Below, piece after piece: positions 2,657 to 17,450 of a stretch of DNA of 64,000 nt. Both the position numbers and the translations under genes were made by a program. Source of the DNA: Roseobacter weihaiensis (GTDB lineage Bacteria > Pseudomonadota > Alphaproteobacteria > Rhodobacterales > Rhodobacteraceae). The notes beneath the pieces were generated by a model. The model did not search any database, was not told where the DNA came from, and was given only the letters and a program-made list of their open reading frames with translations. How positions within the stretch are numbered: the first letter of the stretch is position 1; every line of letters starts with the position of its first letter. The stretch covers positions 186,001-250,000 of the forward strand of contig NZ_JACNMO010000004.1 in NCBI RefSeq assembly GCF_020622345.1. The letters run 5' to 3'.

Positions 2657-3847
2657 ATGTCAGATCAAAACCCAGTCTTTATTCCCGGACCAACAAACAT
2701 CCCCGACCGTTTGAGGTCGGCCATGCAGGTCCAGACGCGTGACCATCGTGCGCCTGATTTTGTCGAGACTTTCGCCCCGGTACTGGAAGACACGAAAAAG
2801 GTCTTTGGCACCAAGGATGGGACAGTCATAACGTTTCCGGCGAGCGGTACCGGCGGGTGGGAGGCCGCTGTGTGCAACACGCTCAGCCCTGGTGACAGGG
2901 TGCTGGTGGCGCGCTATGGCACCTTCAGCCATCGTTGGATTGACCTGTGTCAGCGTCATGGTCTGGAGGTTGAGATCATCGAATGCCCCTGGGGCTCCGG
3001 AGCGCCCGCCGACAAGTTCGAGGCAGCGCTTTCTGCAGATACCACGCACAAGATCAAGGCGGTCCTGGTGACCCACAACGAGACAGCCACCGGCGTCAAA
3101 TCCGATATCGCAGAGGTCCGCGCGGCAATGAATGCGGCCAGCCACCCGGCGCTCTTGTTTGTCGATTGCGTGAGTTCTCTGGCCTCCATGCCCTTCGACA
3201 TGGACGGTTGGGGCGTGGATATTGCCGTGTCCGGGTCGCAAAAGGGGTTTATGCTGGCTACCGGCATGGCGATCCTCGGGGTCAGCCCCAAGGCACTCGC
3301 CGCGATGGAAACGGCCACGCTGCCCCGCACGTTCTTTGATTTCAAAGACATGATGGCGGCCAATGTGTCCGGGGGCTTCCCCTACACCCCGCCATTGCAA
3401 CTGATCTATGGTCTGCGCGAAAGCCTGAACATGCTGTTTGAGGAGGGGTTGGAGAATGTCTACGCCCGTCATTCCCGTCTCGCCGAGGGGGTGCGGCGCG
3501 CCGTCGATGCCTGGGGGCTGCGCCTCGTTGCGCAAAGCCCGGAGCTTTACTCCGACACGGTGAGCGCCATTTATACCCCCAAGGGACTCGACAGCAATGC
3601 GCTGACGCAGCAGGCGTTTGACCATTACGGGGTATCCTTCGGCGTCGGTCTGGGGGAGATGCACGGCAAGGCCTTCCGCATCGGTCACCTTGGCAGTCTC
3701 ACGGATGTGATGGTGCTGTCGGGTTTGGCGACGATGGAGATGGCGATGGCCGATCTGGACTACCCGGTCGAACTGGGCACGGGTGTGGCCGCCGCCCAGG
3801 AGTACTTCCGAAGGGGGCAGGGTGCCGCTATCAAGACCGCAGCATAA
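2657..3847 (+). CDS. bhcA: BhcA, L-aspartate:glyoxylate aminotransferase
   Basis: A 396-residue class V aminotransferase. In the beta-hydroxyaspartate cycle it transfers the amino group of aspartate to glyoxylate, giving glycine and oxaloacetate. The N-terminus FIPGPTNIP is the family's usual opening, and the PLP lysine is K196 in VSGSQKGF. The start at 2657 is set by AGGAGG 8 bp upstream; the longer frame from 2591 adds a non-homologous stretch from the AT-rich leader. It is the first gene of bhcABCD, and bhcB follows after 10 bp. A serine-glyoxylate aminotransferase is the nearest alternative by sequence, but the operon settles the call. Confidence 0.93.
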   Translation: MSDQNPVFIPGPTNIPDRLRSAMQVQTRDHRAPDFVETFAPVLEDTKKVFGTKDGTVITFPASGTGGWEAAVCNTLSPGDRVLVARYGTFSHRWIDLCQRHGLEVEIIECPWGSGAPADKFEAALSADTTHKIKAVLVTHNETATGVKSDIAEVRAAMNAASHPALLFVDCVSSLASMPFDMDGWGVDIAVSGSQKGFMLATGMAILGVSPKALAAMETATLPRTFFDFKDMMAANVSGGFPYTPPLQLIYGLRESLNMLFEEGLENVYARHSRLAEGVRRAVDAWGLRLVAQSPELYSDTVSAIYTPKGLDSNALTQQAFDHYGVSFGVGLGEMHGKAFRIGHLGSLTDVMVLSGLATMEMAMADLDYPVELGTGVAAAQEYFRRGQGAAIKTAA

Positions 3848-3857
3848 GGAGGCAGAG

Positions 3858-4829
3858 ATGTTGGATACCATGACCGGCCCCGATCTCACCATTGAGCATG
3901 TGCGTGCCGCGCATGCGCGGATCAAGCCCTATATTCATGAGACACCGATCCTGACGTCGGAGTATTTCAATGACCTGACGGGGGCCGAGTTGTTCTTCAA
4001 ATGCGAGAATTTCCAGAAGGCCGGGGCGTTCAAGGTGCGCGGGGCGTCAAATGCAGTCTTCGGGCTCAGCGACGAGATGGCCGCCAAGGGGGTGGCGACG
4101 CATTCTTCGGGCAACCACGCGCTGTCGCTGAGCTATGCGGCGGGGCGGCGCGGTATCCCCTGCCATGTGGTGATGCCCCGCACAGCGCCCGAGGCAAAGA
4201 AGGCGGCGGTGCGCGGCTATGGCGGCATAATCACCGAATGCGAGCCGTCGACCACGAGCCGAGAAGCCGTCTTTGCCGAGGTGCAGGCCGAAACAGGTGC
4301 GGAGTTCGTGCATCCCTACAACGATCCGCGTGTGATCTGCGGGCAGGCCACCTGTTCGCTGGAAATGTTGAGCCAGATTGAGAATATGGACGCGGTGATT
4401 GCGCCCATCGGGGGTGGCGGTATGATCTCGGGCACCTGTCTGACGCTTTCAAACCTCGCGCCACAGATGCAGATCTATGCGGCGGAACCGGATCAGGCGG
4501 ATGATGCCGCGCGCTCTTTCAGGGCGGGCCACATCATTGCCGACGACGCGCCGGTGACTGTTGCGGATGGCTTGAAGGTGCCGCTGAAAGAGAACACCTG
4601 GCACTTCGTGTCACATTTCGTGACCGATGTGCTGACCGCCTCGGAGCAGGAGATCATCGACGCGATGAAGCTGACCTGGGAGCGGATGAAGATCGTGATG
4701 GAGCCAAGCTGTGCCGTGCCGATGGCCGCCATTCTGCGCAACCCGGAGGTCTTTCGGGGCAAGCGCGTGGGGGTCGTCATCACGGGTGGCAACGTGGATT
4801 TGGATAAACTGCCCTGGACACTGGACTGA
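3858..4829 (+). CDS. bhcB: BhcB, beta-hydroxyaspartate dehydratase
   Basis: A 323-residue fold-type II PLP enzyme of the threonine dehydratase/serine racemase family. It removes water from beta-hydroxyaspartate to give iminosuccinate. The PLP lysine is K59 in GAFKVRGA, and the phosphate-binding glycine loop is IGGGGMISG. The N-terminal HETPILTSEYFN is typical of the serine racemase-like branch. The start at 3858 follows AAGGAGG (3846-3852). The gene lies between aminotransferase bhcA and aldolase bhcC in the expected order. By sequence alone it could be called a threonine dehydratase. Confidence 0.92.
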   Translation: MLDTMTGPDLTIEHVRAAHARIKPYIHETPILTSEYFNDLTGAELFFKCENFQKAGAFKVRGASNAVFGLSDEMAAKGVATHSSGNHALSLSYAAGRRGIPCHVVMPRTAPEAKKAAVRGYGGIITECEPSTTSREAVFAEVQAETGAEFVHPYNDPRVICGQATCSLEMLSQIENMDAVIAPIGGGGMISGTCLTLSNLAPQMQIYAAEPDQADDAARSFRAGHIIADDAPVTVADGLKVPLKENTWHFVSHFVTDVLTASEQEIIDAMKLTWERMKIVMEPSCAVPMAAILRNPEVFRGKRVGVVITGGNVDLDKLPWTLD

Positions 4830-4841
4830 GGAGAAACGGAC

Positions 4842-6005
4842 ATGAACAAGCAAGTAAACTTTGAAGACTATGAAGTTGGCTATGATATCCCCGCCGCGAT
4901 CGGCATGGAGGAAGCGGATATCCAGACGCCCTGCCTAGTGCTCGACCTCGATGCGCTGGAACGCAATATCAAGAAGATGGGCGACTGGGCCAAGGCGCAT
5001 GGCATGCGTCACCGGGTCCACGGCAAGATGCACAAATCCGTCGATGTGGCCCTGTTGCAGGAAAGTCTTGGCGGGTCTTGTGGGGTGTGCTGCCAGAAAG
5101 TGTCGGAGGCCGAGGTCTTTGCCCGTGGCGGTATCAAGGATGTGCTGGTCTCCAATCAGGTGCGGCAGCCGGAAAAGATCGACCGTCTGGCGCGGTTGCC
5201 CAAACTGGGGGCGCGCGCGATCTGTTGCGTGGATGACATCGAGAATGTGGCGGACCTTTCAGAGGCTGCGACACGTCACGGAACCCAGATTGAATGCCTG
5301 GTGGAGATCGACTGCGGGGCGGGTCGCTGCGGTGTGACGACCACCCCGGAAGTGGTCGAAATTGCCAAGGCCATCGACGCGGCGGAGGGTCTGAAGTTCG
5401 CCGGTATCCAGGCCTATCAGGGCGCGATGCAGCACATGGACAGCTACGCGGACCGCAAGGCCAAGATCGACATCGCGGTGGCGCAGGTCAAAGACGCCGT
5501 GGACACACTGAAAACCGAAGGTATGGAGTGCGATATCGTCGGCGGCGGCGGCACCGGATCTTATTACTTTGAGGGGAATTCAGGCGTTTACAACGAATTG
5601 CAGTGCGGCTCTTACGCTTTCATGGATGCGGATTACGGGCGCATTCTGGATGAGAACGGCAACCGGATCGATCAGGGGGAATGGGAAAACGCGCTCTTTA
5701 TTCTGACCTCGGTGATGAGCCACGCCAAGGCGGACAAAGCCATCGTCGATGCAGGCCTCAAGGCACAGTCGGTCGACAGTGGTCTGCCGGTGATCTTTGG
5801 CCGTCAGGATGTCGAATACATCAAGTGTTCGGACGAGCACGGTGTCGTGGCCGATCCGGGCGGCGTGCTCAAGGTCAATGACAAGCTCAAACTGGTGCCC
5901 GGCCACTGTGACCCGACCTGCAATGTGCATGATTGGTACGTGGGCGTACGGGACGGCAAGGTGGAAACGCTCTGGCCGGTGTCCGCGCGCGGCAAGGCGT
6001 ATTGA
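4842..6005 (+). CDS. bhcC: BhcC, beta-hydroxyaspartate aldolase
   Basis: A 387-residue fold-type III PLP enzyme of the D-threonine aldolase/alanine racemase-like group. It joins glycine and glyoxylate to make beta-hydroxyaspartate. The N-terminal TIM barrel carries the PLP lysine K62 in RVHGKMHK. The C-terminal domain has the metal-binding GHCDPTCN (HxC type). A ribosome binding site GAGGAG lies 12 bp after the bhcB stop. Length and operon position match bhcC of Paracoccus. Without the neighbours it would be annotated as a D-threonine aldolase or DSD1-family protein. Confidence 0.93.
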   Translation: MNKQVNFEDYEVGYDIPAAIGMEEADIQTPCLVLDLDALERNIKKMGDWAKAHGMRHRVHGKMHKSVDVALLQESLGGSCGVCCQKVSEAEVFARGGIKDVLVSNQVRQPEKIDRLARLPKLGARAICCVDDIENVADLSEAATRHGTQIECLVEIDCGAGRCGVTTTPEVVEIAKAIDAAEGLKFAGIQAYQGAMQHMDSYADRKAKIDIAVAQVKDAVDTLKTEGMECDIVGGGGTGSYYFEGNSGVYNELQCGSYAFMDADYGRILDENGNRIDQGEWENALFILTSVMSHAKADKAIVDAGLKAQSVDSGLPVIFGRQDVEYIKCSDEHGVVADPGGVLKVNDKLKLVPGHCDPTCNVHDWYVGVRDGKVETLWPVSARGKAY

Positions 6006-6086
6006 GCCCCCGGCGAGGGATCAAAAAAGGTGCGTCCGGACCCTCCGGGCGCGTTTCACATGCAAGGCTCAAGACAGGAAGACCCG

Positions 6087-7064
6087 ATGTCAGAAGGATT
6101 ACTGATCGTCAGCGAAGAAATATGCGCCGAAGTCGTCAGCAGCGCGGATGCATTCACCGCCGTGGAGGCGGTTTTTGGCGCGATGGCGAAGGGCGATGCC
6201 TATAATTTCCCGGTGATCAGAGAGGCGATTGGCTATGCGGATGCGCTTTATGGCTTCAAATCCGGCTTTGACAAGGCGGGCAAGACGCTGGGCGTGAAAT
6301 CCGGGGGGTATTGGCCCGGCAATATGGACAAGGGGCTGACCAACCACCAGTCCACGATTTTTCTCTTTGATCCCGATACCGGCATGTTGCAGGCGCTGGT
6401 GGGGGGCAATTACCTGACAGCGGTGCGCACGGCGGCCTCCTCCTCGGTCTCCATTGCGCATCTGGCGCGCAAGGACGCCCGGGTGCTGGGCATGGTGGGG
6501 GCCGGGCATCAGTCGACCTTCCAGTTGAGGGCCGCGGCCCGGCAGCGTGATTTTGAAAAGGTGGTGGCCTGGAACCCGCATCCCGAAATGCTGCCGCGCC
6601 TTGCCGCGGTTGCCGAAGAGCTTGGGGTGGGCTTTGAGGCGGTCAGCCCGCAGGAGCTGGGAGCACAGGCGGATGTCATCATCACCATTACTTCGGCCTT
6701 TGAACCCTTGCTGATGAAGGATTGGATCAAACCCGGCACGCATCTCGCCTGCATGGGAACCGATACCAAGGGCAAGCAAGAGGTAGATCCTGCCTTGCTG
6801 GCCAGCGCGCGGGTCTTTGCGGATGAGATCAGCCAGTCCACGACAATCGGCGAAGCCCAGCATGCTACAGAGCAGGGCCTTCTGAAGAGCACAGACATTA
6901 CGCCCATCGGGGCCGTCATCAATGGCGATCATGCCGGACGCAGCAGCCCGGAAGAGATCACCCTCTTTGACGGGACCGGTGTTGGCTTGCAGGATCTGGC
7001 GGTGGCCTCCGTGGCCGCGCGCGAAGCGGAAAAGCAGGGCAAAGCCACCCGCGTCGCCCTCTGA
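6087..7064 (+). CDS. bhcD: BhcD, iminosuccinate reductase
   Basis: A 325-residue member of the ornithine cyclodeaminase/mu-crystallin family. It reduces iminosuccinate with NADH to L-aspartate, regenerating the amino donor used by BhcA. The Rossmann motif GMVGAGHQS is near residue 140, and the family substrate lysine region GFKSGFDKAGK is near residues 55-65. The start at 6087 follows AGGAAG; an upstream in-frame start at 6030 adds a non-homologous extension. It is the last gene of the operon and is followed by a strong terminator. Confidence 0.92.
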   Translation: MSEGLLIVSEEICAEVVSSADAFTAVEAVFGAMAKGDAYNFPVIREAIGYADALYGFKSGFDKAGKTLGVKSGGYWPGNMDKGLTNHQSTIFLFDPDTGMLQALVGGNYLTAVRTAASSSVSIAHLARKDARVLGMVGAGHQSTFQLRAAARQRDFEKVVAWNPHPEMLPRLAAVAEELGVGFEAVSPQELGAQADVIITITSAFEPLLMKDWIKPGTHLACMGTDTKGKQEVDPALLASARVFADEISQSTTIGEAQHATEQGLLKSTDITPIGAVINGDHAGRSSPEEITLFDGTGVGLQDLAVASVAAREAEKQGKATRVAL

Positions 7065-7286: not shown

Positions 7287-8870
7287 ATGACGCGCCGCAA
7301 ACGGAATGGGATGAGTGGTCAGGCTGTGAGCAACGACGACGCAAAAGAGGGACAGGAGATCAATGCGGATGCCCTGGCGCCCGGCAGCAAGCTGTTGAGC
7401 GGTCAGTACGAGATTCTGCGCTACCTCAGCAGTGGCGGTTTTGGCATTACCTATCTTGCGCGCGACAGCCTCAATCGGACAGTGGTCATCAAGGAATGCT
7501 TTCCCGAAGCGTTCTGCAGCCGGGTCAAAAAGACCGTGCGCGCCCGGACACAGAATTACATCGATGACTTTCGCTCCATCGTGCAGCTGTTCATCCGCGA
7601 GGCGCATGCGCTGTCCAAGCTCGATCATCCCAGCGTGGTCGGGGTGCATCAGGTCTTTGAAGACAATGAGACGGCCTATATGGCGCTGGATCTGATCGAG
7701 GGCAAAGACCTGCTCGACATCATCGAAGAGGACGCATCGCAGATCGGACCCGAGGCCGTGCGTGCGCTGACCCTCAAGCTGCTGGACGCCATCGCCCATG
7801 TACATGCGCGGGACTTGCTGCACCGGGATATCTCGCCGGACAACATCCTGGTCGAGCCGTCAGGCCATCCCGTGTTGATCGATTTCGGAGCCGCCAGAGA
7901 AGAGGCGAGCCGTAAAAGCCGCATGCTCTCCGCGATGCTGGTGGTCAAGGACGGCTATTCCCCGCAGGAATTCTACGTGGCCGGCAGCCAGCAGCATCCC
8001 TGCAGTGACCTCTACGCGCTGGCGGCCACGCTGACGCATCTGATCTCGGGCACAGCGCCGCCCAACAGCCAGGCCCGGCTTGCCGCCCTCGCCAGCAACC
8101 AGCCGGATCTCTATGCGCCGCTTTTGGGGCGGTTTCCACAATATGACGGCGCGTTCCTGTCGGCGATCGACAGATGCATGAACATCGTGCCCGCAGAGCG
8201 GCTGCAGTCCGCCGAAGACTGGGCACTGATGATCGACCACAACAAGCGCCTTGAGATCGCCCGCGCGGCAGCGCAGCAGGACAAATCCATCGACCAGACG
8301 GTCATGAAGCTGGTGAAATCCGTTCAGGACAGCCCCGATGGCTCCCCGACGGATGGGCTGGGTCAACGACCCGGCCCCGCCCCTGATGCGCCCCAGTCGG
8401 CTGAGTTTTTGCCCGTGCAAGAGGCGCAAACGTCAGATGCGGACAGTCTTACGCAACAGGATGTGTTGGACGGACCGGCCCCGGCGGACAGTGACGCTTC
8501 TGACGCGCTGATCTCCCACGCGGCGGATCTGGAGGAGACAGCCCGCCCAGAGGATCGCGGCAATCAGGTGCGCCCCGAGGCACCGGCACCCGCCCCAAGC
8601 CCCTATCTGCGGGTCGCCTCAAAGGCAGTTGAGGCCGCCAAGGCGCCAAAGGCCCCGCCACCGCCCGTCATCACGCCCCGCCGCATCATGCGCTTTGCAA
8701 CCGTGCCAGTGGTTTTCTGCGCTTATTTTTTCTACGCCCAGACCTTGTTTCAATATGAAGAGGTTCAACAGGCGACCCTGCAACCCCTACTGACGTTTGG
8801 CGAGGGGTTTGGCGGCTGGAACGACAGCGGCGCCTCTCCCGTCACGGTCCGTCGAGGCATCGGCGGCTGA
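7287..8870 (+). CDS. Membrane-anchored Ser/Thr protein kinase (Hanks type)
   Basis: A 527-residue protein with a full kinase domain at about residues 40-315: glycine loop SSGGFGITY (48-56), ATP lysine K69 (VVIKE), helix-C E105, catalytic HRD at 179-181 followed by ISPDNIL, and DFG at 199-201. GGFGITY and HRDISPDN resemble the PpkA/Stk group. A long Pro/Ala/Asp-rich linker (about 335-465) leads to one membrane segment (FATVPVVFCAYFFYAQTLF, 470-488) and a short C-terminal tail, so the kinase is probably cytoplasmic and membrane-tethered. ATG 7311 is an alternative start. It is the first gene of the kinase-FHA-phosphatase-GTPase cluster; the substrate is unknown. Confidence 0.9.
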   Translation: MTRRKRNGMSGQAVSNDDAKEGQEINADALAPGSKLLSGQYEILRYLSSGGFGITYLARDSLNRTVVIKECFPEAFCSRVKKTVRARTQNYIDDFRSIVQLFIREAHALSKLDHPSVVGVHQVFEDNETAYMALDLIEGKDLLDIIEEDASQIGPEAVRALTLKLLDAIAHVHARDLLHRDISPDNILVEPSGHPVLIDFGAAREEASRKSRMLSAMLVVKDGYSPQEFYVAGSQQHPCSDLYALAATLTHLISGTAPPNSQARLAALASNQPDLYAPLLGRFPQYDGAFLSAIDRCMNIVPAERLQSAEDWALMIDHNKRLEIARAAAQQDKSIDQTVMKLVKSVQDSPDGSPTDGLGQRPGPAPDAPQSAEFLPVQEAQTSDADSLTQQDVLDGPAPADSDASDALISHAADLEETARPEDRGNQVRPEAPAPAPSPYLRVASKAVEAAKAPKAPPPPVITPRRIMRFATVPVVFCAYFFYAQTLFQYEEVQQATLQPLLTFGEGFGGWNDSGASPVTVRRGIGG

Positions 8871-8955
8871 TGAAACAGGCAATCTCTCTCCTTAGACTTC
8901 CGGAAGGGCGTGACGATGCATTCCCTTTCTTTCAAACCATAAGAAAGGCAGATCA

Positions 8956-10164
8956 ATGACACTCTTCAAAAAAGTATTCCAGAACCAGGCCCGTCCCGCG
9001 ACCGAAGAGGAGGCTCTGGAGGAAGAGGCGCTGCGCAGCAACTTTATGGATGCGCCCGACGCCTCAGGGCCTCTGGTGCTGGACCCCTTTGAGCATGCGC
9101 TCGAGCGGCGGGAGCACTCGGAGGAAGAGGTCGACCCCGGCGAAGATGACCTCCATGATGAGGATGACCTTGCGGCTCTGAAGGATGCTTTCGCCCAGGA
9201 TCCTTTTGAGGCCGAGGGTGATGTGGCCGCCATGATGCATGAGCCTGTCAACGAGGAGCTGACGTCTGACGCGTTTGACCCCGCAGATGGGCCCGGGCAA
9301 ACGGATGACGAGATCGTGGCCTGCCTTGGGCGTGCTCTCGCGGCGAAGACGCCAGAGGTGGAAGAGGAAGATCGCCCCGAGCTGACCGAGGACGCTGATC
9401 CGGGTGCAGGCGATGAGGCTGCCGCCACAGGTTCGCATGACGCTGCGGAGTTTGCCGCTGAGACATTCGCATCTGCAGAGGAAGCCGCGGAGGAAGAGGT
9501 TGCCGCAGAAGACCTGAACATCGCAGCTTTTGCCAAAGAACAGATGGCGGCCTTGGCCGACGGCCCGGCCAACGCACCGGCGGAGGTGGATGCCGAGGAG
9601 GACGCCGCGGACGAGCCGGTCCTTGATTTGTCGCGTCGTGCGGGCCTTGATGTCTTGCCAGCCCCTGCAACGGGGCGCGCAGGCCGCAGGGCAGGCCGGG
9701 TCAAGACAAGGCTTTTGGGCTTTAACCGCACGCCGACTGACGAAAACGACCCCTTTGAGCAAGCCCCCGATGCGACGGCAACGGCGCAGCGCGAAAAGTT
9801 TCCGGTGGGCTGGCTTGTCATTGTCGAAGGGCCGGGGATGGGGCATTCCTTCAGCATTTTTGCAGGCGCCTCCGTCATCGGTCGGGGCGAAGATCAGGTG
9901 ATCCGGCTTGATTTCGGAGACAACAGCATCTCGCGCAACAATCACGCGGCCATCGCCTATGACGAGGAGCAGAACAAGTTCTATATCGGCCACGGCGGCA
10001 AATCCAATATCATCCGCCGCAATGCGCGCCCCGTGCTCAGCACCGAAGAACTGCACCACGCCGATCTCATTCGCATCGGCGAGACCACCTTGCGGTTTGT
10101 GGCCCTTTGTGGGTCGGATTTTCAGTGGAACATGGCCGGGGGTCCGGATGCAGCCGGTCTTTGA
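8956..10164 (+). CDS. Acidic FHA-domain protein
   Basis: A 402-residue protein. Residues 1-280 are strongly acidic and Ala/Glu-rich with little predicted structure. A C-terminal FHA domain at about 282-384 carries the phosphothreonine-binding core: GRGED near 309 and SRNNH near 326, ending in LIRIGETTLRFV. FHA domains read phosphothreonine, so this is the natural reader for the kinase encoded 85 bp upstream, and the acidic tail may hold the phosphosites. Its stop overlaps the phosphatase start by 17 bp. No type VI secretion genes are nearby. Confidence 0.85.
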   Translation: MTLFKKVFQNQARPATEEEALEEEALRSNFMDAPDASGPLVLDPFEHALERREHSEEEVDPGEDDLHDEDDLAALKDAFAQDPFEAEGDVAAMMHEPVNEELTSDAFDPADGPGQTDDEIVACLGRALAAKTPEVEEEDRPELTEDADPGAGDEAAATGSHDAAEFAAETFASAEEAAEEEVAAEDLNIAAFAKEQMAALADGPANAPAEVDAEEDAADEPVLDLSRRAGLDVLPAPATGRAGRRAGRVKTRLLGFNRTPTDENDPFEQAPDATATAQREKFPVGWLVIVEGPGMGHSFSIFAGASVIGRGEDQVIRLDFGDNSISRNNHAAIAYDEEQNKFYIGHGGKSNIIRRNARPVLSTEELHHADLIRIGETTLRFVALCGSDFQWNMAGGPDAAGL

Positions 10165-10993
10165 ATTTGACGCAGTCTCTGCCTTGAGCAAGGGGCAGCG
10201 CGACTACCAGGAAGATGCCATCATCACCGATTTCGCCCGCGGCGCAGATGTCGGGGTGGTTGTTCTTGCGGATGGGATGGGCGGTCATGCCGCAGGCGAT
10301 GTGGCCAGCAAGATCGTGGTCACCGAGGTCTTCAGCGAGCTGATGTTTCAGCGCGGCGAGACCAGCCGTTTTGAACGGGACGTGCCGGGCACTTTGCGGG
10401 CGGCCGCGATGGCCGCCAATGCCTGCCTGAAAGGTCATGTTCAAGCCTATCCCGAGACCCACGGGATGGGGGCGACCCTGGTGGCGGCGGTTGTGGCCGA
10501 CCGGCATCTCTACTGGATATCGATCGGGGATTCGCCGCTTTTTCTGTTCCGCGCGGGCGCGCTGATCCAGTTGAACGAAGACCACTCCATGGCGCCGCAG
10601 ATCGACTTCATGGCCAAATCGGGCCTGCTGGGCAAGGAAGAGGCTGAAAAGCATCCTGATCGCAACACGCTGACATCTGTGCTGTTCGGCGAGGATGTGC
10701 CAAAGATCGACTGCCCCGACGCCCCTGTCGACTTGCAGGATGGTGATATTCTGCTGGTGGCCAGCGACGGGCTGCAGTTCCTGCGCAATGAAGAGATCGA
10801 AGCCGCCCTGCGGCGGAACAGATCCAGTCCAAGTGCTGATATTGCCGATGATCTGTTGCAGCGGGTCATGGCGCTGGATGATCCGGATCTCGACAATGTT
10901 TCCTTTTCGATCATCAAGATTCAGGACTACGACAAGGCCGATCAGGCTCGGGCGCAGTCGGCGGGGCGATCGGGTATCCGCTGTGTTGGATGA
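10148..10993 (+). CDS. PP2C-family Ser/Thr phosphatase
   Basis: A 281-residue stand-alone PP2C (PPM) phosphatase. The metal-binding motifs are RDYQED (18-23) and ADGMGGH (41-47); later motifs include GMGATLV, SIGDSPLF, a DGDILLVASDG strand and DNVSF near the end. It should reverse phosphorylation by the upstream kinase, as PppA opposes PpkA in other bacteria. The start at 10148 lies inside the end of the FHA gene, so translation is probably coupled. A longer in-frame start at 9908 lies in antisense-like sequence and is rejected. Confidence 0.9.
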   Translation: MQPVFEFDAVSALSKGQRDYQEDAIITDFARGADVGVVVLADGMGGHAAGDVASKIVVTEVFSELMFQRGETSRFERDVPGTLRAAAMAANACLKGHVQAYPETHGMGATLVAAVVADRHLYWISIGDSPLFLFRAGALIQLNEDHSMAPQIDFMAKSGLLGKEEAEKHPDRNTLTSVLFGEDVPKIDCPDAPVDLQDGDILLVASDGLQFLRNEEIEAALRRNRSSPSADIADDLLQRVMALDDPDLDNVSFSIIKIQDYDKADQARAQSAGRSGIRCVG

Positions 10994-12116
10994 TCCAGGT
11001 GCCTCCGAACTGGCCGACCGGCTGGCTGCGGCGGCAACACATGAGCGGTTGTCGCAGGCGGCCCGCGATCAGGCGCGCGGCTTGGCGGACCGGTTGGCGC
11101 AGGGGGTGAAGATTTGTCTACTGGGTCCCAAGGGGGCTGGAAAATCCGCGATATGCGATGCCATCGTCGGGCGGCGGTCGGAGATCAGGGCGCAGGAGGT
11201 CACCCGCATCTTCTCTACACACCCCGCTGGCGTTCAATCGAGCTTCGGGCCGGGCCGCAGCATCACGCTGCCACTGACGCCTGCGGTTCTGGGGGGCGTG
11301 CAACTCGTTGACGTCGCATTGCCGCAGGACCCCGCAGCATGGCCCAGGGCGATGGCCCGGATGGTCGAGGTCGCGGATATCGTCCTGTGGTGTACCGAAG
11401 GCTTTGCGCCGCCAGAGGCGACCCTCTGGGCGCAGGTGCCTGATGCCTTGAAGGACCACAGTTTTCTGGTTCTAACAAAGGCGGACCTTTTGGCCCGTCA
11501 GGGCCTGTTGGAAGCGCGCATCACCGGTCTGCAGGCCGTTGTGACAGAGGAGTTTCACAGCCTCTTCCCAACCACGACACCCCGTCTGATGTCCAGGATC
11601 GATGCGGGCACCGGTGTCAGTGAAACGGATCTCGCCGCCAGCGGCGTCAAGGCTCTGATTGAGGCCGTGGCCAACCTGGTCGCCTCCGGGCACCGGGCAG
11701 ATATGGATAGTGCAATGCTCTTTTTACAACGTCATGGGGAGGCCCTGGCGGCGGCTCCCGCCTCTGCGGATCTGGCGTCGGTTGCGGCTGATCCCGCCGC
11801 GCGCCGGCCCTATGCGACCGCCCGAGACAAAATCATGGAACGTGCGCTGGATCTGGCGGAAATGAGCTTTGACGCCTCACCCGCTGACCTGTCGGAAGTG
11901 CTGGAGCTTTGCGGCACGATTTCAGAGGATCTGGTGGATGTGATGCAACAGCAGGCAGGGGATTTTGCCGACCTCGCCCCCTGGTGTGCCGTCTGCGAGG
12001 ATGCCTCTGACAAGATCATGCTGATGACGATGGAAAATGACACCCGGTCTGCGGCGGATGCGGTGAGCATTCTTTTGCAGTTGCGCCGGGATTTCGAGTA
12101 CCTCGCAGTTCATTAA
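10983..12116 (+). CDS. P-loop GTPase-like protein lacking a canonical G3 motif
   Basis: About 377 residues if the GTG at 10983 is used; that start overlaps the phosphatase stop by 11 bp. There is no ATG between it and the P-loop, and the longer frame runs back through the phosphatase gene. The Walker A motif is GPKGAGKS (48-55) and the G4-like motif is LTKADLL (164-170). Where a G3 DxxG is expected the protein reads LVDVALPQDP, with no glycine. The C-terminal 150 residues are helical with no clear motif. This is probably a dynamin- or Era-like GTPase with altered chemistry, or a nucleotide-binding pseudoenzyme. No membrane segment is visible. Confidence 0.7.
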   Translation: MLDDPGASELADRLAAAATHERLSQAARDQARGLADRLAQGVKICLLGPKGAGKSAICDAIVGRRSEIRAQEVTRIFSTHPAGVQSSFGPGRSITLPLTPAVLGGVQLVDVALPQDPAAWPRAMARMVEVADIVLWCTEGFAPPEATLWAQVPDALKDHSFLVLTKADLLARQGLLEARITGLQAVVTEEFHSLFPTTTPRLMSRIDAGTGVSETDLAASGVKALIEAVANLVASGHRADMDSAMLFLQRHGEALAAAPASADLASVAADPAARRPYATARDKIMERALDLAEMSFDASPADLSEVLELCGTISEDLVDVMQQQAGDFADLAPWCAVCEDASDKIMLMTMENDTRSAADAVSILLQLRRDFEYLAVH

Positions 12117-12284
12117 AATTTTAACGAGGCTCAGCTTTTGCGCCAGCCTCCAGCCATAATAGAGGCACAATTCTCCCCCAGATTGCTTGCAGGCTATTGG
12201 AATTTTGGGGTGGCGAATGTTGATCTTGGCAAAGGAACGAAGCGGCAATTCCGTGCGCGCTGCTGGCGTCAGGGGGCGGGCGGC

Positions 12285-14348
12285 ATGAACGTTCTCAACC
12301 TATCGGATCCGAGGGTTTTTCAGGACGCAGAGCAGGCGGACATGCTGGGCGGCGGGCTGGAAAAACTATGCACCTTTGCAGAATCTGCCGCAGCGCTCAG
12401 GACCGCTCTGGAGACGCTGGTGTCCTTGGGCGATGAGAACACAGAGCGGCGCGCCGAGCGCATGATGCGGCAGCTTGAGACCTTTGAGCCCTCGGTCACG
12501 ATGATCGGCCAGATCAAGTCCGGCAAGACCTCCCTTGTCAATGCGCTGATCGGCGCCCCGGACCTGTTGCCGGCGGATGTGAACCCCTGGACTTCTGTTG
12601 TGACCTCCCTGCATCTGCATCCCGAAGATCCCGGTTTTGAGAACAGCGCCTCCTTTCGCTTCTTTGATGAGGACGAATGGGATCGTCTGATCTCGGGGGG
12701 CGGGCGCATTGGTGAGCTGGCCAGCCGGGCGGGGGCCGATGAGGAGCTTGAAAAGATCAAGGAGCAGGTTGCCGCGATGCGGGAGAAATCGCGCGTCCGG
12801 CTGGGGCGCAGGTTTGAGGTGATGCTGGGTCAGCAACGCGATTATGGATACTTCGATAAAGAGCTGATCGAGCGATATGTCTGCCTGGGCGAGGACCTAG
12901 ACGAAACCGAAGACGCCGCCGCGGACACCCAGGGCAGATTCGCGGACATCACCAAGTCCGCCGACATCAACATGCAACGCGCCGGGCTGCCGATGCGGCT
13001 TTGCCTGCGGGACACACCGGGCGTGAACGACACCTTCATGATGCGTGAGCAGATCACCATCCGCGCGATCCGTGACAGCCGCATCTGCGTCGTGGTGCTG
13101 TCGGCGCATCAGGCTCTGTCCTCGACTGATATGGCGCTTATCCGTCTGATCTCAAATGTTAAATCTAGGGATGTCATCATCTTTGTGAACCGCATAGATG
13201 AGCTGTCGGACCCGGCTTCCCAAATCCCGCAGATCACGCAAAGCATTTCCGAAACCCTCAAAAAGCATAAAGGTCCCGCAGAGGCGGAGGTTATCTTTGG
13301 CAGCGCGCTTTGGGCCTCATACGCCCTGCAGACGCACCTGGAAGCGTTGCCGACGTCGAGCATCCGCGCGTTGCAAAACCTGATGCAGGCAGACGCCGAG
13401 GCCCCCTCCGGGGTCGATGCGGCCACGACATGGCGGCTCTCGGGCGTGCCGGCGCTGCAGGACGCGATTGCAGAGCGCATTGTTCAGGGCAGCGGTGCGG
13501 CCACGTTGCAACGTATCGGGTCCAGTGCAAAGAACCTGGCTGCGGGTCTGGCGGCGGCAGATCGTATTGGGGCGATGGATGCCAGCCTGCGCACGACGAC
13601 CGCGCTGACCAGTGCAGAGGCGCATGAGCTGATGGACCAGCTTTGTGCCCGCCACAAAGCCGCGCTTGCCTCCGAATTCGATGCGTTGCTTGCGGCTTTT
13701 GCAGAACGGATGGAACGGGTACAGGACAGCTTTCTGGAGCGGGCAACCGCCTCGCTCGTGGAGCATCTCGACCTTTACGGCGCGCAAGGGGCCTGGAGCT
13801 ATGATCCGGCGGGGCTGCGGGTCCTGCTCAGCGCGTCCCACAAGGTTTTGGCGCGCAAGAGCCAATCCGCTTTTGAGCAGGCCACGAAAGCCGCCGCAGC
13901 TGAGATCACGGACATCTACGGCCGCGCGTTTTCCCTGGCGGCTGGAGATTTCGGGATCGCCCTGCCCCGCGCGCCACAGGTGCCGGATCCGGTTTCTCTC
14001 GGCCGCACGATTGCGCTGGACCTGACCGGGGGATGGTGGAAACGATGGTGGATGCAGCGGCGCGGGCACAAGGCCTATGCGTCAAGTTTCTATGATCTTA
14101 TCAAGTCCGAGACGACCCCCGTTATCGCGGACCTCCGGGATGATCTGGCGCAGACCGTCAGAGACAACGCCTGCGCGCGCTTTGACGCATTTCTCAAAGA
14201 GCAGCTTGCGGTCTTTGCATCGCTCGACCGCATGCAGCAGGCCAGCCCTGAAGAGCTGAGCAAATACGTCGCCAAACATACACCGCGCGACCGTCGCGTG
14301 CTGCTTGAGGAAACGCTGGCGACCCTGGAAGAGTACGCAACGTCATGA
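12285..14348 (+). CDS. Large dynamin-like GTPase
   Basis: A 687-residue protein with a complete GTPase core: P-loop GQIKSGKT (75-82), a threonine-bearing switch region PWTSVVTS, G3 DTPG (243-246) and G4 NRID (302-305). A long helical region follows, with an aromatic-basic patch GGWWKRWWMQRRGHK near 575-590 that could insert into a membrane. Size, insert between G1 and G3 and helical tail fit the bacterial dynamin-like family. The start at 12285 follows AGGGGG; the earlier in-frame start at 12138 adds a non-family stretch. A 168-bp gap precedes it, and its stop overlaps the next GTPase gene (ATGA). Confidence 0.78.
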   Translation: MNVLNLSDPRVFQDAEQADMLGGGLEKLCTFAESAAALRTALETLVSLGDENTERRAERMMRQLETFEPSVTMIGQIKSGKTSLVNALIGAPDLLPADVNPWTSVVTSLHLHPEDPGFENSASFRFFDEDEWDRLISGGGRIGELASRAGADEELEKIKEQVAAMREKSRVRLGRRFEVMLGQQRDYGYFDKELIERYVCLGEDLDETEDAAADTQGRFADITKSADINMQRAGLPMRLCLRDTPGVNDTFMMREQITIRAIRDSRICVVVLSAHQALSSTDMALIRLISNVKSRDVIIFVNRIDELSDPASQIPQITQSISETLKKHKGPAEAEVIFGSALWASYALQTHLEALPTSSIRALQNLMQADAEAPSGVDAATTWRLSGVPALQDAIAERIVQGSGAATLQRIGSSAKNLAAGLAAADRIGAMDASLRTTTALTSAEAHELMDQLCARHKAALASEFDALLAAFAERMERVQDSFLERATASLVEHLDLYGAQGAWSYDPAGLRVLLSASHKVLARKSQSAFEQATKAAAAEITDIYGRAFSLAAGDFGIALPRAPQVPDPVSLGRTIALDLTGGWWKRWWMQRRGHKAYASSFYDLIKSETTPVIADLRDDLAQTVRDNACARFDAFLKEQLAVFASLDRMQQASPEELSKYVAKHTPRDRRVLLEETLATLEEYATS

Positions 14349-15298
14349 AAGATACCGCAACAGCTACCCCGCTCGCTTTCTTGAACGAAGTCAAGGGCGC
14401 GCGCCTGCCAAGGATTGCCCTGATGGGGGAATTCAGCGCCGGAAAAAGCACCCTGGCCAATCTGATGATTGGGACCGATCCGCTGCCGGTGCAGGTGGTG
14501 GCGACGCAACTGCCACCGGTCTGGATCAGCTACGGATCGGGGCCCTCGGTCATCGTTGATCTGGAGGGGAATGAGACCCCTTGCGATCTGGATGCCTGGC
14601 AAGGATATGCGCCCGAAGACATCGCTTTCATCCGGTTTTACCGGGAAGAGGAAATCCTGAAGCGCTGCGATATCATTGACATGCCGGGCATTTCTGACCC
14701 GAATATGTCGGGCGAGGTCTGGCAGCGGATCATGCCGCTTGCGGATGGCGTGTTGTGGTGCAGCCCGTCCACACAGGCCTGGCGCCAAAGCGAGGCCGCG
14801 GTCTGGGACAGCGTCGAGGATGACGTTAAAGCCAACTCACTTTTGGTGCTGACGCGCAGCGACATGCTGTTGACCGAAAAGGACAAGGCCAAGGTGCTCA
14901 GACGTGTCACAACGCAGGCAGGCGCACTCTTTTCCGGCGTTGTGATGATGTCCCTTCTTCAGGCAGGTGCGGTTGAGGATGACGAAGCACTTTGGGAAGA
15001 AAGCGGTGCAGAGCGCTTTGTCACAGCGTTCCTGACGCTGATCGAGCGGATCAAAACCGGTCTGTCGGGGGATGAGGACCAGGACGGTTCACAGCTTGCG
15101 TCCCCGGCTGATCCTTCGGGGCATTTGCAGGCGGCTGAAACGCCCATGACGCCGGATGCGCCAATGGCGGAAGGGGCACCCGTGGTGCCGCGCAGGCCGG
15201 TTTCACCCCGCAAATCGCGCCGGGACTCTCCCCAAGCGGCCCCTGATTGCGATACCACGCAGCAGGATCCGCTGTCCTTCATGCCAAAGTTCTCCTGA
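14345..15298 (+). CDS. Small dynamin-like GTPase with disordered tail
   Basis: A 317-residue protein coupled to the large GTPase by a 4-bp ATGA overlap. The motifs are complete: P-loop GEFSAGKS (28-35), G3 DMPG (112-115) and G4 TRSD (170-173). GEFSAGKST is characteristic of bacterial dynamin-like proteins. After about residue 240 the chain is Pro/Ala/Asp/Ser-rich with a basic stretch RRPVSPRKSRR, likely disordered and a possible kinase substrate. It may form a heteromeric pair with the upstream large GTPase, as paired dynamins do elsewhere; this pairing is inferred. Confidence 0.75.
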   Translation: MKDTATATPLAFLNEVKGARLPRIALMGEFSAGKSTLANLMIGTDPLPVQVVATQLPPVWISYGSGPSVIVDLEGNETPCDLDAWQGYAPEDIAFIRFYREEEILKRCDIIDMPGISDPNMSGEVWQRIMPLADGVLWCSPSTQAWRQSEAAVWDSVEDDVKANSLLVLTRSDMLLTEKDKAKVLRRVTTQAGALFSGVVMMSLLQAGAVEDDEALWEESGAERFVTAFLTLIERIKTGLSGDEDQDGSQLASPADPSGHLQAAETPMTPDAPMAEGAPVVPRRPVSPRKSRRDSPQAAPDCDTTQQDPLSFMPKFS

Positions 15299-15380
15299 CC
15301 CGTTAACCCGAAACACATGTTCTGACGCTATGGCAGAGGTCTCTGTCAAACGAGAAGGCGCGTGGTGATATCGGAACACG

Positions 15381-15776
15381 GTGAATAGCGTGACAATTGG
15401 CGAAGAATTGGCTGCCCTGCGACACCGGTATCCGGGGTGCTTTGTTGTGGCCTTCGCCGATCTCTCTACGGGCATGGTTCTGGCCGTCAGTACGCTCGAA
15501 AAGACTGCCCAGGAAAAGCTTGATGCTCTGGGCCGGACGGCGCAGAGCTGTCTGTTGGGACAAGGGGCCTCCGCCGTCGCGCAGGTGCTTGGGGCGGGGG
15601 CAAGAAACAGCCCGACCATGGCGCTGCAGGCCGGGGCGCATGACATTCGGTGTTTTTTGCGCGCGCCTGCCCCGGCGGTGGAGGCGCTTTGTCTTGTCCT
15701 CACCCCTGAGGCCGATTTGGACCGGCTCTTGCCCGATGCGACAGAGGCTCTGCTGCGGCTCACGGTGGAGGCGTAG
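15381..15776 (+). CDS. Roadblock/LC7-like small protein
   Basis: 131 residues starting at GTG 15381 (a second GTG at 15390 is possible). The pattern is helix, the strand pair CFVVAFADLSTGMVLAV, a long helix, then two strands and a final helix (LPDATEALLRLTVE). This matches the Roadblock/LC7 fold, whose members regulate small GTPases (MglB with MglA is the bacterial example). Detection is by pattern, not a diagnostic motif. It lies 82 bp after a GTPase gene and 2 bp before the next gene. A GTPase regulator role is inferred from fold and company. Confidence 0.55.
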   Translation: MNSVTIGEELAALRHRYPGCFVVAFADLSTGMVLAVSTLEKTAQEKLDALGRTAQSCLLGQGASAVAQVLGAGARNSPTMALQAGAHDIRCFLRAPAPAVEALCLVLTPEADLDRLLPDATEALLRLTVEA

Positions 15777-15778
15777 GG

Positions 15779-16555
15779 ATGCCGCGCGGGGAAAATGATG
15801 ACACAGCACGGTTCATGCGGGCCATTGCCGGGTTTTCGGCGGCTCCTGAAACGGTGACAAGACTGGGCCGCGCGCTGGTCCAGAGCGGCGGCGCGCTTGA
15901 GGCGATGCTGGTCGAGATCAATGAGACCGTCCTGCGGCGAACCCTGACGTTTCGAACCGACGCAGGCGCGACGCTGTCTCTCGATGTTAGCGAGCGGCGC
16001 GTGCTGCGGGTCGTTGATGCGCCGGTATCAGAGGATAAACGCTGTGCTTCTGTGGTAAAACGGGTTTTGACGGCGGAGGATGCAAAGCCACTGATGCGCC
16101 TTCTGGCTGATTGTATTCCCCCGGATGACCAGGTGTATGTGGTATCCGCGCTCCCTGATGACCCTGCCACGGCTGTGTTCGAGGGGATTTCAGTCCGGGA
16201 CCTGATGGATGTGAAAGCACCCCAGGACACCGCGGCAGAGCTGCCGAAACGTCTCGCGGATATGGTGGTGCAGGGCAAAAATAACATGCGGGCGATGACC
16301 TGCTATGCGGATCGGGAGGCGCTGGTGCGGTGGGGGCAGAATGATCTCTGCGCAGCAGCGGACAGCATCCTCCCCTCGTTGCTGCCTGATCCAGGCCCGT
16401 CAGTCACGCTTTGGCACGGCGGGCTGCGCGAGGATTCTGCCCTGCTGGTGATCTCTACAGAGGGGTTTGTGATCTGCGCCTTCTGTGATGCGCAAGATGT
16501 CTCTCGCTGTTTCGGGGCGTGGCAAGCCTATATTTCGAATCCCAACCATACCTAG
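15779..16555 (+). CDS. Uncharacterised protein, last gene of the kinase-GTPase cluster
   Basis: 258 residues with no motif I recognise, no membrane segment and no signal peptide. It appears alpha/beta, and its C-terminal third (SVTLWHGGLREDSALLVIST and the following strands) could be another Roadblock-like or profilin-like fold, but this is weak. It starts 2 bp after the Roadblock-like gene, so the two are almost certainly co-expressed and may form a complex. It closes the cluster; beyond it the strand changes. Confidence 0.6.
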   Translation: MPRGENDDTARFMRAIAGFSAAPETVTRLGRALVQSGGALEAMLVEINETVLRRTLTFRTDAGATLSLDVSERRVLRVVDAPVSEDKRCASVVKRVLTAEDAKPLMRLLADCIPPDDQVYVVSALPDDPATAVFEGISVRDLMDVKAPQDTAAELPKRLADMVVQGKNNMRAMTCYADREALVRWGQNDLCAAADSILPSLLPDPGPSVTLWHGGLREDSALLVISTEGFVICAFCDAQDVSRCFGAWQAYISNPNHT

Positions 16556-16661: not shown

Positions 16662-17450
16662 TCACCCGGTCGGCCTTGCTTTTTCTTGACTGCCGTCGAT
16701 GAAGCCGGTCAGCGCAGGGAGAACATCCGTTGGCGTATCCTGCAATACAGTGTGCGAAGCGAAAGGCAGGTTGAGCAGTCGCGCGCCTTCGACCCGTTCG
16801 GCAAGCGCAAAGGCGTGCGCACGCGAGACGAGAATGTCCTCGTCGCCGTTAACGACCAGAAGTGGGGTGGTAATGGTGCGGACCGTATCGTTTGGGTAGG
16901 CGTCATCCCCCTTGCCAAGCCACATGGCCCTGGTCGCCTCGAACAGTCGCGCGAAATCGGGATCGGGGTTCTCAGCCTCATATCTCCTGACTTGCCGCCC
17001 GAACATCTCTCGCCACTCCTGAGCAGTGACATCCCGATAAATCTCACGGGTCGGGTTGTCGTCCGGCAACTGCCAATGCGCCCCGACGGCAACGACGAAA
17101 CGCGGCCGTGCATTATGGGAGGCCGCAAGGCGCAGGGCAACGATGCCACCATCGCTGTGGCCGATGATCCCGGCCTCGCTCAGCCCAAGCTGGTCCAGAA
17201 CTGCCGCAATGTCGTCGGCCAACTGGCGATAGGTCAGTGTGGCGTCCCCCAAGGCAGATCGGCCATGGCCGCGGCTGTCGATCGCGATCAGCCGGTAACG
17301 GGATACAAGGTACCGGGCCAGCGGCTCGAAATCGGCCCGGCTTCCCAAACCGCCATGAAGCAAGATGACGGGCGGCCCATCGCTCTTGCCCGCCTGCGAG
17401 ACAAACAGCGCAGCATCGCCGGCGGTGATGGTCTTTCCCGTGTCAAACAT
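16662..17450 (-). CDS. Alpha/beta hydrolase
   Basis: A 262-residue cytosolic alpha/beta-hydrolase fold protein. It shows the oxyanion HGG motif (LLHGGLGSRADF), the nucleophile elbow GHSDGG (Ser about residue 98), an acid residue in VNGDEDILV and the terminal histidine in FASHTVLQ. The substrate cannot be told; the cap region suggests a small ester or haloperoxidase-like enzyme. It stands alone between the GTPase cluster and glpR. The 252 bp upstream (17451-17702) hold no gene I can support. Confidence 0.85.
   Translation of the reverse strand: MFDTGKTITAGDAALFVSQAGKSDGPPVILLHGGLGSRADFEPLARYLVSRYRLIAIDSRGHGRSALGDATLTYRQLADDIAAVLDQLGLSEAGIIGHSDGGIVALRLAASHNARPRFVVAVGAHWQLPDDNPTREIYRDVTAQEWREMFGRQVRRYEAENPDPDFARLFEATRAMWLGKGDDAYPNDTVRTITTPLLVVNGDEDILVSRAHAFALAERVEGARLLNLPFASHTVLQDTPTDVLPALTGFIDGSQEKARPTG

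Follow-up and report, generated by a model that had tools for sequence, protein, structure and literature searches.

The stretch of Roseobacter weihaiensis DNA analyzed here (the window, 64,000 nucleotides, C46:186001-250000 in a genome of 5.35 Mb and 91 contigs) carries eight closely packed genes, here called A to H, which all run in the same direction at positions 7287-16555 of the plus strand. These eight genes are a real co-inherited unit and form a Roseobacter-group cassette that is apparently undescribed. The best explanation of the cassette, which we place just short of an even chance, is a dedicated signal-controlled membrane-remodeling machine of Rhodobacteraceae. Its computed support consists of gene content, gene order, co-inheritance, predicted Roadblock folds, the kinship of D and F, catalytic motifs, and the finding that A and C are the sole Pkinase and PP2C_2 matches in the genome. 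A more specific proposal, which we hold somewhat more tentatively, is that a Roadblock heteropair made of G and H regulates a dynamin-family GTPase, as a GTPase-activating protein (GAP), a guanine nucleotide exchange factor (GEF), or a placing factor, and is gated by a Ser/Thr kinase, an FHA switch, and a PP2C phosphatase; this would be the first signal-switched bacterial dynamin system. The packing and common direction of the genes had been noticed in a first-pass annotation of the same DNA, which read them as a write-read-erase module. That reading stood as far as the unit of kinase-FHA-PP2C, dynamin, and Roadblock genes is conserved and is distinct from type VI secretion, and the identities of D and H had to be changed. 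The features are as follows (aa, amino acids).

7287..8870, plus strand: A, Hanks-type Ser/Thr protein kinase, 527 aa (Pkinase, 101 bits)
8956..10164, plus strand: B, FHA-domain protein with a variable N-terminal region, 402 aa (FHA, 29.1 bits)
9697..9723, plus strand: motif R-x-K-T-R-L-L-G-F of B, from R248 to F256 and including T251, a candidate phospho-switch (alignment)
10148..10993, plus strand: C, PP2C-type phosphatase, 281 aa (PP2C_2, 46.9 bits)
10983..12116, plus strand: D, G3-less P-loop paralogue of the small dynamin-like GTPase F, 377 aa (hhalign)
12117..12284: D-E intergenic stretch of 168 bp with a conserved block, putatively a separate promoter for E to H
12285..14348, plus strand: E, large dynamin-like GTPase, 687 aa (Dynamin_N, 50.2 bits)
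14345..15298, plus strand: F, small dynamin-like GTPase, 317 aa, overlapping E by 4 bp (Dynamin_N, 47.0 bits)
15390..15776, plus strand: G, Roadblock/LC7 protein by predicted fold, 128 aa from the GTG at 15390
15779..16555, plus strand: H, two-part protein, 258 aa, whose C-terminal part (151-258) is probably a Roadblock-type domain

The conservation of the cassette was examined by scanning an alignment of E against GTDB contigs. The best 80 of 505 confirmed relatives were kept as loci (L numbers below; G numbers are genomes), and this sample is therefore biased to close kin. In 66 of the 80 loci, A to H were all found on one strand and in one order. Among the other 14, 12 ended at a contig boundary, L128 had no detectable G and H, and L156 lacked A. 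The titles of the loci named Roseobacter, Roseovarius, Yoonia, Jannaschia, Loktanella, and other Rhodobacteraceae, some going no further than Paracoccaceae, Rhodobacterales, or Alphaproteobacteria. A protein search with E gave matches, part of them weak, in 41 of 146 relatives, and in forty regions around E matches the A-B-C-D-E-F-G-H order recurred in several genera. Distance matrices of the eight proteins were compared over 63 of the 66 ordered loci (L113, L140, and L141 were dropped because of suspected over-long frames); the correlations ranged from 0.80 to 0.93, and the best of 200 permutations per pair reached 0.21. No universal extra neighbor gene was found, with no flanking family present in more than 24 of the 80 loci. 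The recurring flanking families, named by eye, were an ABC ATPase (24/80), a gene like that of glyceraldehyde-3-phosphate dehydrogenase (16/80, upstream on the minus strand in 15 of the 16 places), and an ABC-2-type permease (11/80), the rest occurring in 10 loci or fewer. They were mostly in Yoonia-Loktanella loci, besides the Roseobacter loci among the 24 with the ABC ATPase, and we read this lineage-restricted recurrence as shared chromosomal sites.

A survey covered 394 Rhodobacteraceae genomes, nearly one per genus. An E-family gene was present in 101 genomes (expectation value up to 1e-30) and B in 86; 81 had both, 20 had E only, 5 had B only, and 288 had neither. Of the 81 genomes holding both, 72 have B and E no more than 9 kb apart, which was counted as adjacent. 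As for the nine genomes beyond this distance, G061 has one longer cluster (L066), contig breaks are possibly the cause in G222, G270, G366, and G370, the two genes are 3.1 Mb apart on one contig in G021, and they are on different contigs in the draft genomes G243, G296, and G459. Separate A-B-C or A-B-C-D groups were found at L209, L210, and L215, and in G459 A-B is accompanied by G, H, and a gene resembling D or F, without C at L211 and with C at L212. The first-pass annotation would have lost its basis if the eight genes were not conserved together; the ordered loci, the correlated distances, and the co-occurrence of E and B speak strongly against this.

We then considered the three proteins related to dynamins. 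The Dynamin_N scores of both E and F are above the curated cut-off of 27. Motifs and hydropathy were counted over the 66 ordered loci as simple patterns. In E, the G1, DTPG[VI]ND, and G4 patterns were all found in 66/66. Its best relatives of solved structure were the dynamin-like protein (DLP) of Campylobacter jejuni and the bacterial DLP (BDLP) of Nostoc, a profile search with E giving 5owv (7.2e-14) and 2j68 (4.5e-12). A WW[KR].W motif, present in 46/66 E proteins, is only suggestive of membrane action by E. F has G1 in 65/66, G3 in 42/66, and G4 in 56/66, the window copy carrying all three, and a short conserved tail, PKFS, in 9/66. F lies directly behind E in all 66 loci, so that the two dynamin genes are paired in an operon. 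Bacterial DLPs are mostly encoded as operon pairs according to the main text of PMC6104087, and we count this for the membrane-remodeling explanation.

D had been called a G3-less P-loop protein. The loss of G3 was borne out (G3 in 1/66, P-loop in 60/66, G4 pattern in 36/66, so that the full GTPase motif set is not present), and its identity can now be given differently: in an hhalign comparison, D matched F at 99.6% with an expectation value of 2e-23. By its sequence, D is clearly a G3-less paralogue of F. The 168-bp gap noted earlier between D and the large GTPase is indeed present. It is at least 100 bp long in 54/66 loci and contains a conserved block among 11 Roseobacter sequences; a consensus scan of the gap gave no sigma-70 site. 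This stretch putatively holds a separate promoter for E to H.

Such a gap suggests two transcription units, and the halves of the cassette are sometimes rearranged or at separate sites. Both points would fit two independent modules, one a kinase-FHA-PP2C switch, the other made of dynamin and Roadblock genes, that merely travel together. However, E is present in 81 of the 86 B-positive genomes, some of which have the halves at separate sites, and this is more than neighborhood alone would give. In addition, D, the kin of F, is placed in the kinase half. We therefore regard mere joint travel as quite unlikely.

The Roadblock-like nature of G, proposed from the start, is supported by the predicted model, which has the Roadblock fold and resembles MglB. 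No Pfam or NCBIfam family was matched by G at an expectation value of up to 1; the assignment is thus one of predicted fold, and we do not claim sequence membership in Roadblock/LC7. H had been listed as an unknown protein. According to its model, a further Roadblock-type domain is probably present in the C-terminal half (151-258), and G and H may thus act as a regulator pair. Sequence searches of solved structures with G and H gave no relative and one chance-level match, and comparison of G with H gave no sequence kinship. Of the 80 loci, 77 hold both F and G, and in 76 of these G follows closely behind F. For this reason, F is the most likely partner of the G-H pair.

Roadblock pairs also occur with dynamins in further layouts, which we count for the signal-controlled dynamin machine. 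One layout, phosphatase-G-H-P-loop protein-E2-F2, was found in L071, L183, L186, and L187, and partially in L185 (no H detected) and L062 (no E2 next to F2). The phosphatase of L183 is of the DSP/PTP type (Pfam Tc-R-P / PTP-SAK), the other five upstream proteins being homologous to it, and the P-loop proteins of this layout are ABC-like, about 400 aa long, and homologues of that of L183. Another layout, E-F-G-H-E2-F2, is preceded by D in L065 and followed by kinase and FHA genes in L066 and L199. E-F-E-F sets were found in L173-L177 and L180, the region examined there containing neither G nor H. As a side observation, a 2Fe-2S/FAD-type protein is encoded behind the phosphatase layout in L183 (by Pfam, with a globin part) and in L062 (by eye), the latter additionally having a GFA protein there.

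The likeness of G to MglB by fold could also point to a polarity, division, or cell-shape system, in which the Roadblock pair would direct the dynamins to a pole or septum, in the way that MglB helps to place MglA. Roseobacters have polar growth and attachment, which fits such a role. MglB moreover has a partner, RomY (PMC9481161). However, the cluster is without an MglA-type GTPase, and E is missing from 293 of the 394 family genomes, which argues against a core division function. We consider this alternative unlikely.

Next, the signaling half was examined. In A, the HRD and DFG patterns were found in 66/66 loci and the G-loop in 64/66. In the genome of the window, A is the sole match to PF00069 and C the sole match to PF13672 (expectation value up to 0.001), and single-protein searches agree for both; for FHA there is one further match besides B. 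A C-terminal transmembrane segment of A was predicted in 35/66 loci, followed by 350-530 residues in some lineages and by none in others. The parts of eight long kinases outside the kinase region gave no Pfam domain above cut-off. B has a variable N-terminal region followed by an FHA domain, whose conserved residues are R310, S326, R327, H330, and N351, with one invariant island ahead of the domain. In this island, R248, T251, R252, L253, G255, and F256 are identical in 23 aligned proteins. The motif pattern was present in 61/66, its Thr lying at a median of 33 residues before the FHA start (31-48, 59 measured). B had a weak match, 0.001, to the OdhI model, and by analogy T251 is a candidate phosphorylation switch site. 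C has R..[NQ]ED and DG[MI]GG in 66/66 and D[ND][VI][ST] in 39/66; against a Stp1-type model it scored 146.6 bits, below the model cut-off of 230. L104 has an additional high-scoring copy of the PP2C gene at 16845 on the minus strand, downstream of the full cassette.

The threonine phosphorylation pathway of the type VI secretion system (T6SS) is made of PpkA, Fha, and PppA. A kinase-FHA-PP2C trio could therefore be a regulatory island of type VI secretion, and the genome of the window carries TssC, on another contig (C25). With TssC alone as the T6SS marker, matches were found in 102 of the 394 genomes: 34/101 E-positive and 68/293 E-negative ones (odds ratio 1.68, p 0.048, in a Fisher test that ignores kinship). 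However, the same test for B and TssC gave a p of 0.13, there is no TssC match in 67 of the 101 E-positive genomes, and E and TssC share a contig in just 6 of the 34 genomes with both, 63 kb to 1 Mb apart. TssC is thus neither adjacent to E nor regularly co-occurring with it, in agreement with the earlier view that this is no T6SS island; we reject the island, which is very improbable. In G000, the genome of the window, two VipB/TssC-family matches adjoin at C25:22374-24687, on a contig without a PF00069 or PF13672 match.

The cassette was also found on plasmids. E relatives were present in 18 of 72,556 plasmid records. On a plasmid of Leisingera sp. S132 (L198), E-F-G-H faces D-C-B, two substrate-binding protein genes, and the kinase gene, so the halves remain neighbors in a different layout. 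According to the annotation, the two genes between the kinase and FHA genes (L198 16532-18876) encode transporter substrate-binding proteins, which suggests that the kinase of this version may sense a solute. The L. caerulea plasmid (L197) has the eight genes in the usual order. The annotation of one plasmid copy gives D, G, and H no name other than "hypothetical protein."

At one Roseobacter site, between an ornithine-cyclodeaminase-like gene (upstream) and glpR (downstream), the cassette is present or absent as a block: G003, G009, G014, and G016, which have no E, have the same flanking genes and no cassette. L045 (G010) keeps E and F alone at this site, and they may be either a product of decay or a working minimal pair. 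Three Roseobacter genomes have two clusters each (L041/L059, L047/L057, and L048/L056), one of the six being cut by a contig end. In the window, 3783-7064, just upstream of the cassette, resembles what we take to be the end of a beta-hydroxyaspartate cycle operon (dehydratase, aldolase-like, and iminosuccinate-reductase-like genes).

This patchy distribution (E in 101/394 genomes), the plasmid copies, and the presence or absence of the whole block at one site are also what an anti-phage or conflict system might display, with an infection-sensing kinase releasing the dynamins onto the membrane and thereby blocking lysis or killing the cell. E matched the PADLOC LeoA model at 1.8e-12 and the kinase matched the PD-T4-6 and MAD6 kinase models, all of which look like common-domain matches. 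Other results do not favor a defense island. From 362 candidate flanking proteins, 72 were picked, a single protein for each family that had a homologue in a further locus, and they gave 3 PADLOC families with one member each (expectation value up to 1e-10). The first 25 of the 95 flanking Pfam families were for the most part families of metabolism, transport, or regulation, and included MreB. A search of 50,697 phage records gave no match to E. When 398 genomes were sampled across the phylum, 9 matched E at 1e-15, 8 of them in the same family (the genome of the window included) and 1 outside it, in the same class. Finally, the eight proteins are inherited together, with no evident variable toxin. 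The defense option of the first-pass annotation therefore found little support, and we consider it unlikely.

Pfam domains were found in A (protein kinase), B (FHA), C (PP2C), and E and F (dynamin N-terminal), and D, G, and H were below every cut-off. No cassette protein was above cut-off in an NCBIfam scan, and the PADLOC scan gave single-domain matches only. With PHROGs, A matched kinase families, C two families of unknown function, and F one family weakly. There was no Rfam RNA-element match in the window, and consensus promoters and terminators between 6900 and 16800 were not more numerous than in shuffles.

In the membrane-remodeling machine that we prefer, E and F would act as a heterotypic bacterial dynamin pair on the cytoplasmic membrane, and the Roadblock pair G-H would set the nucleotide state of F. 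D, a nucleotide-binding and probably non-switching relative of F, would couple the dynamin pair to the signaling half. Kinase A would phosphorylate B, with T251 just ahead of the FHA domain as the candidate site; the FHA domain of B might then fold back on its own phosphothreonine or dock on phosphorylated A, D, E, or F, and phosphatase C would reset the switch. The machine may serve in envelope stress or remodeling. We infer all the protein-protein contacts, the direction of the phospho-signal, the order of events, the membrane action, and the envelope role.

The activation of bacterial dynamins is largely an open question. If the proposal is true, a eukaryote-like route from signal to membrane remodeling would exist inside one bacterial family, and Roadblock proteins would have a regulatory reach that goes past Ras, Rag, and MglA GTPases to dynamins. 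The cassette is compact, is naturally present or absent in close relatives, and contains the sole Pkinase and PP2C_2 matches of its genome, so its parts should be separately deletable with little cross-talk.

No published description of the combination was found in searches of the open PMC literature aimed at it or at parts of it (subscription journals and preprints lie mostly outside that literature); the first-pass annotation knew of none either. The cassette shares Dynamin_N domains and two adjoining dynamin genes with C. jejuni DLP1/DLP2 and Nostoc BDLP. It differs from them in the short F (317 aa) and adds a G3-less relative, two Roadblock-type proteins (H probably so), and the kinase-FHA-PP2C set; "kinase" and "roadblock" do not occur in the main text of PMC6104087. 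In a survey of prokaryotic Ras-like GTPases, Roadblock proteins are tied to MglA and to conservons, and "dynamin" and "FHA" do not occur in its available text (PMC4316618). MglB and RomY form a GAP complex (PMC9481161). An MglB-type Roadblock protein beside a GTPase is common to the cassette, MglA-MglB, and the actinobacterial conservons (Cvn), which also have a kinase (PMC4316618; PMC13343842). In contrast to these systems, no MglA-type small Ras GTPase partner was found in the cassette, its GTPases E and F being Dynamin_N proteins and D a kin of F. A is a Ser/Thr Pkinase of the Hanks type accompanied by FHA and PP2C proteins, not a histidine-kinase-type CvnA, and there are probably two Roadblock-type proteins.

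The PpkA-Fha-PppA pathway likewise brings kinase, FHA, and PP2C together, and the cassette differs from it in having no TssC in 67/101 E-positive genomes and, on shared contigs (6 genomes), a TssC at least 63 kb away. In OdhI, the phosphothreonine folds back onto the FHA domain. OdhI of Corynebacterium is phosphorylated at Thr14 (PMC2784874). B has, as OdhI and GarA do, a conserved Thr N-terminal to its FHA domain. Whereas OdhI and GarA control 2-oxoglutarate metabolism, B is larger, has a variable N-terminal region, and is encoded in a dynamin operon; OdhI-like switching of B is, by this analogy, a lead.

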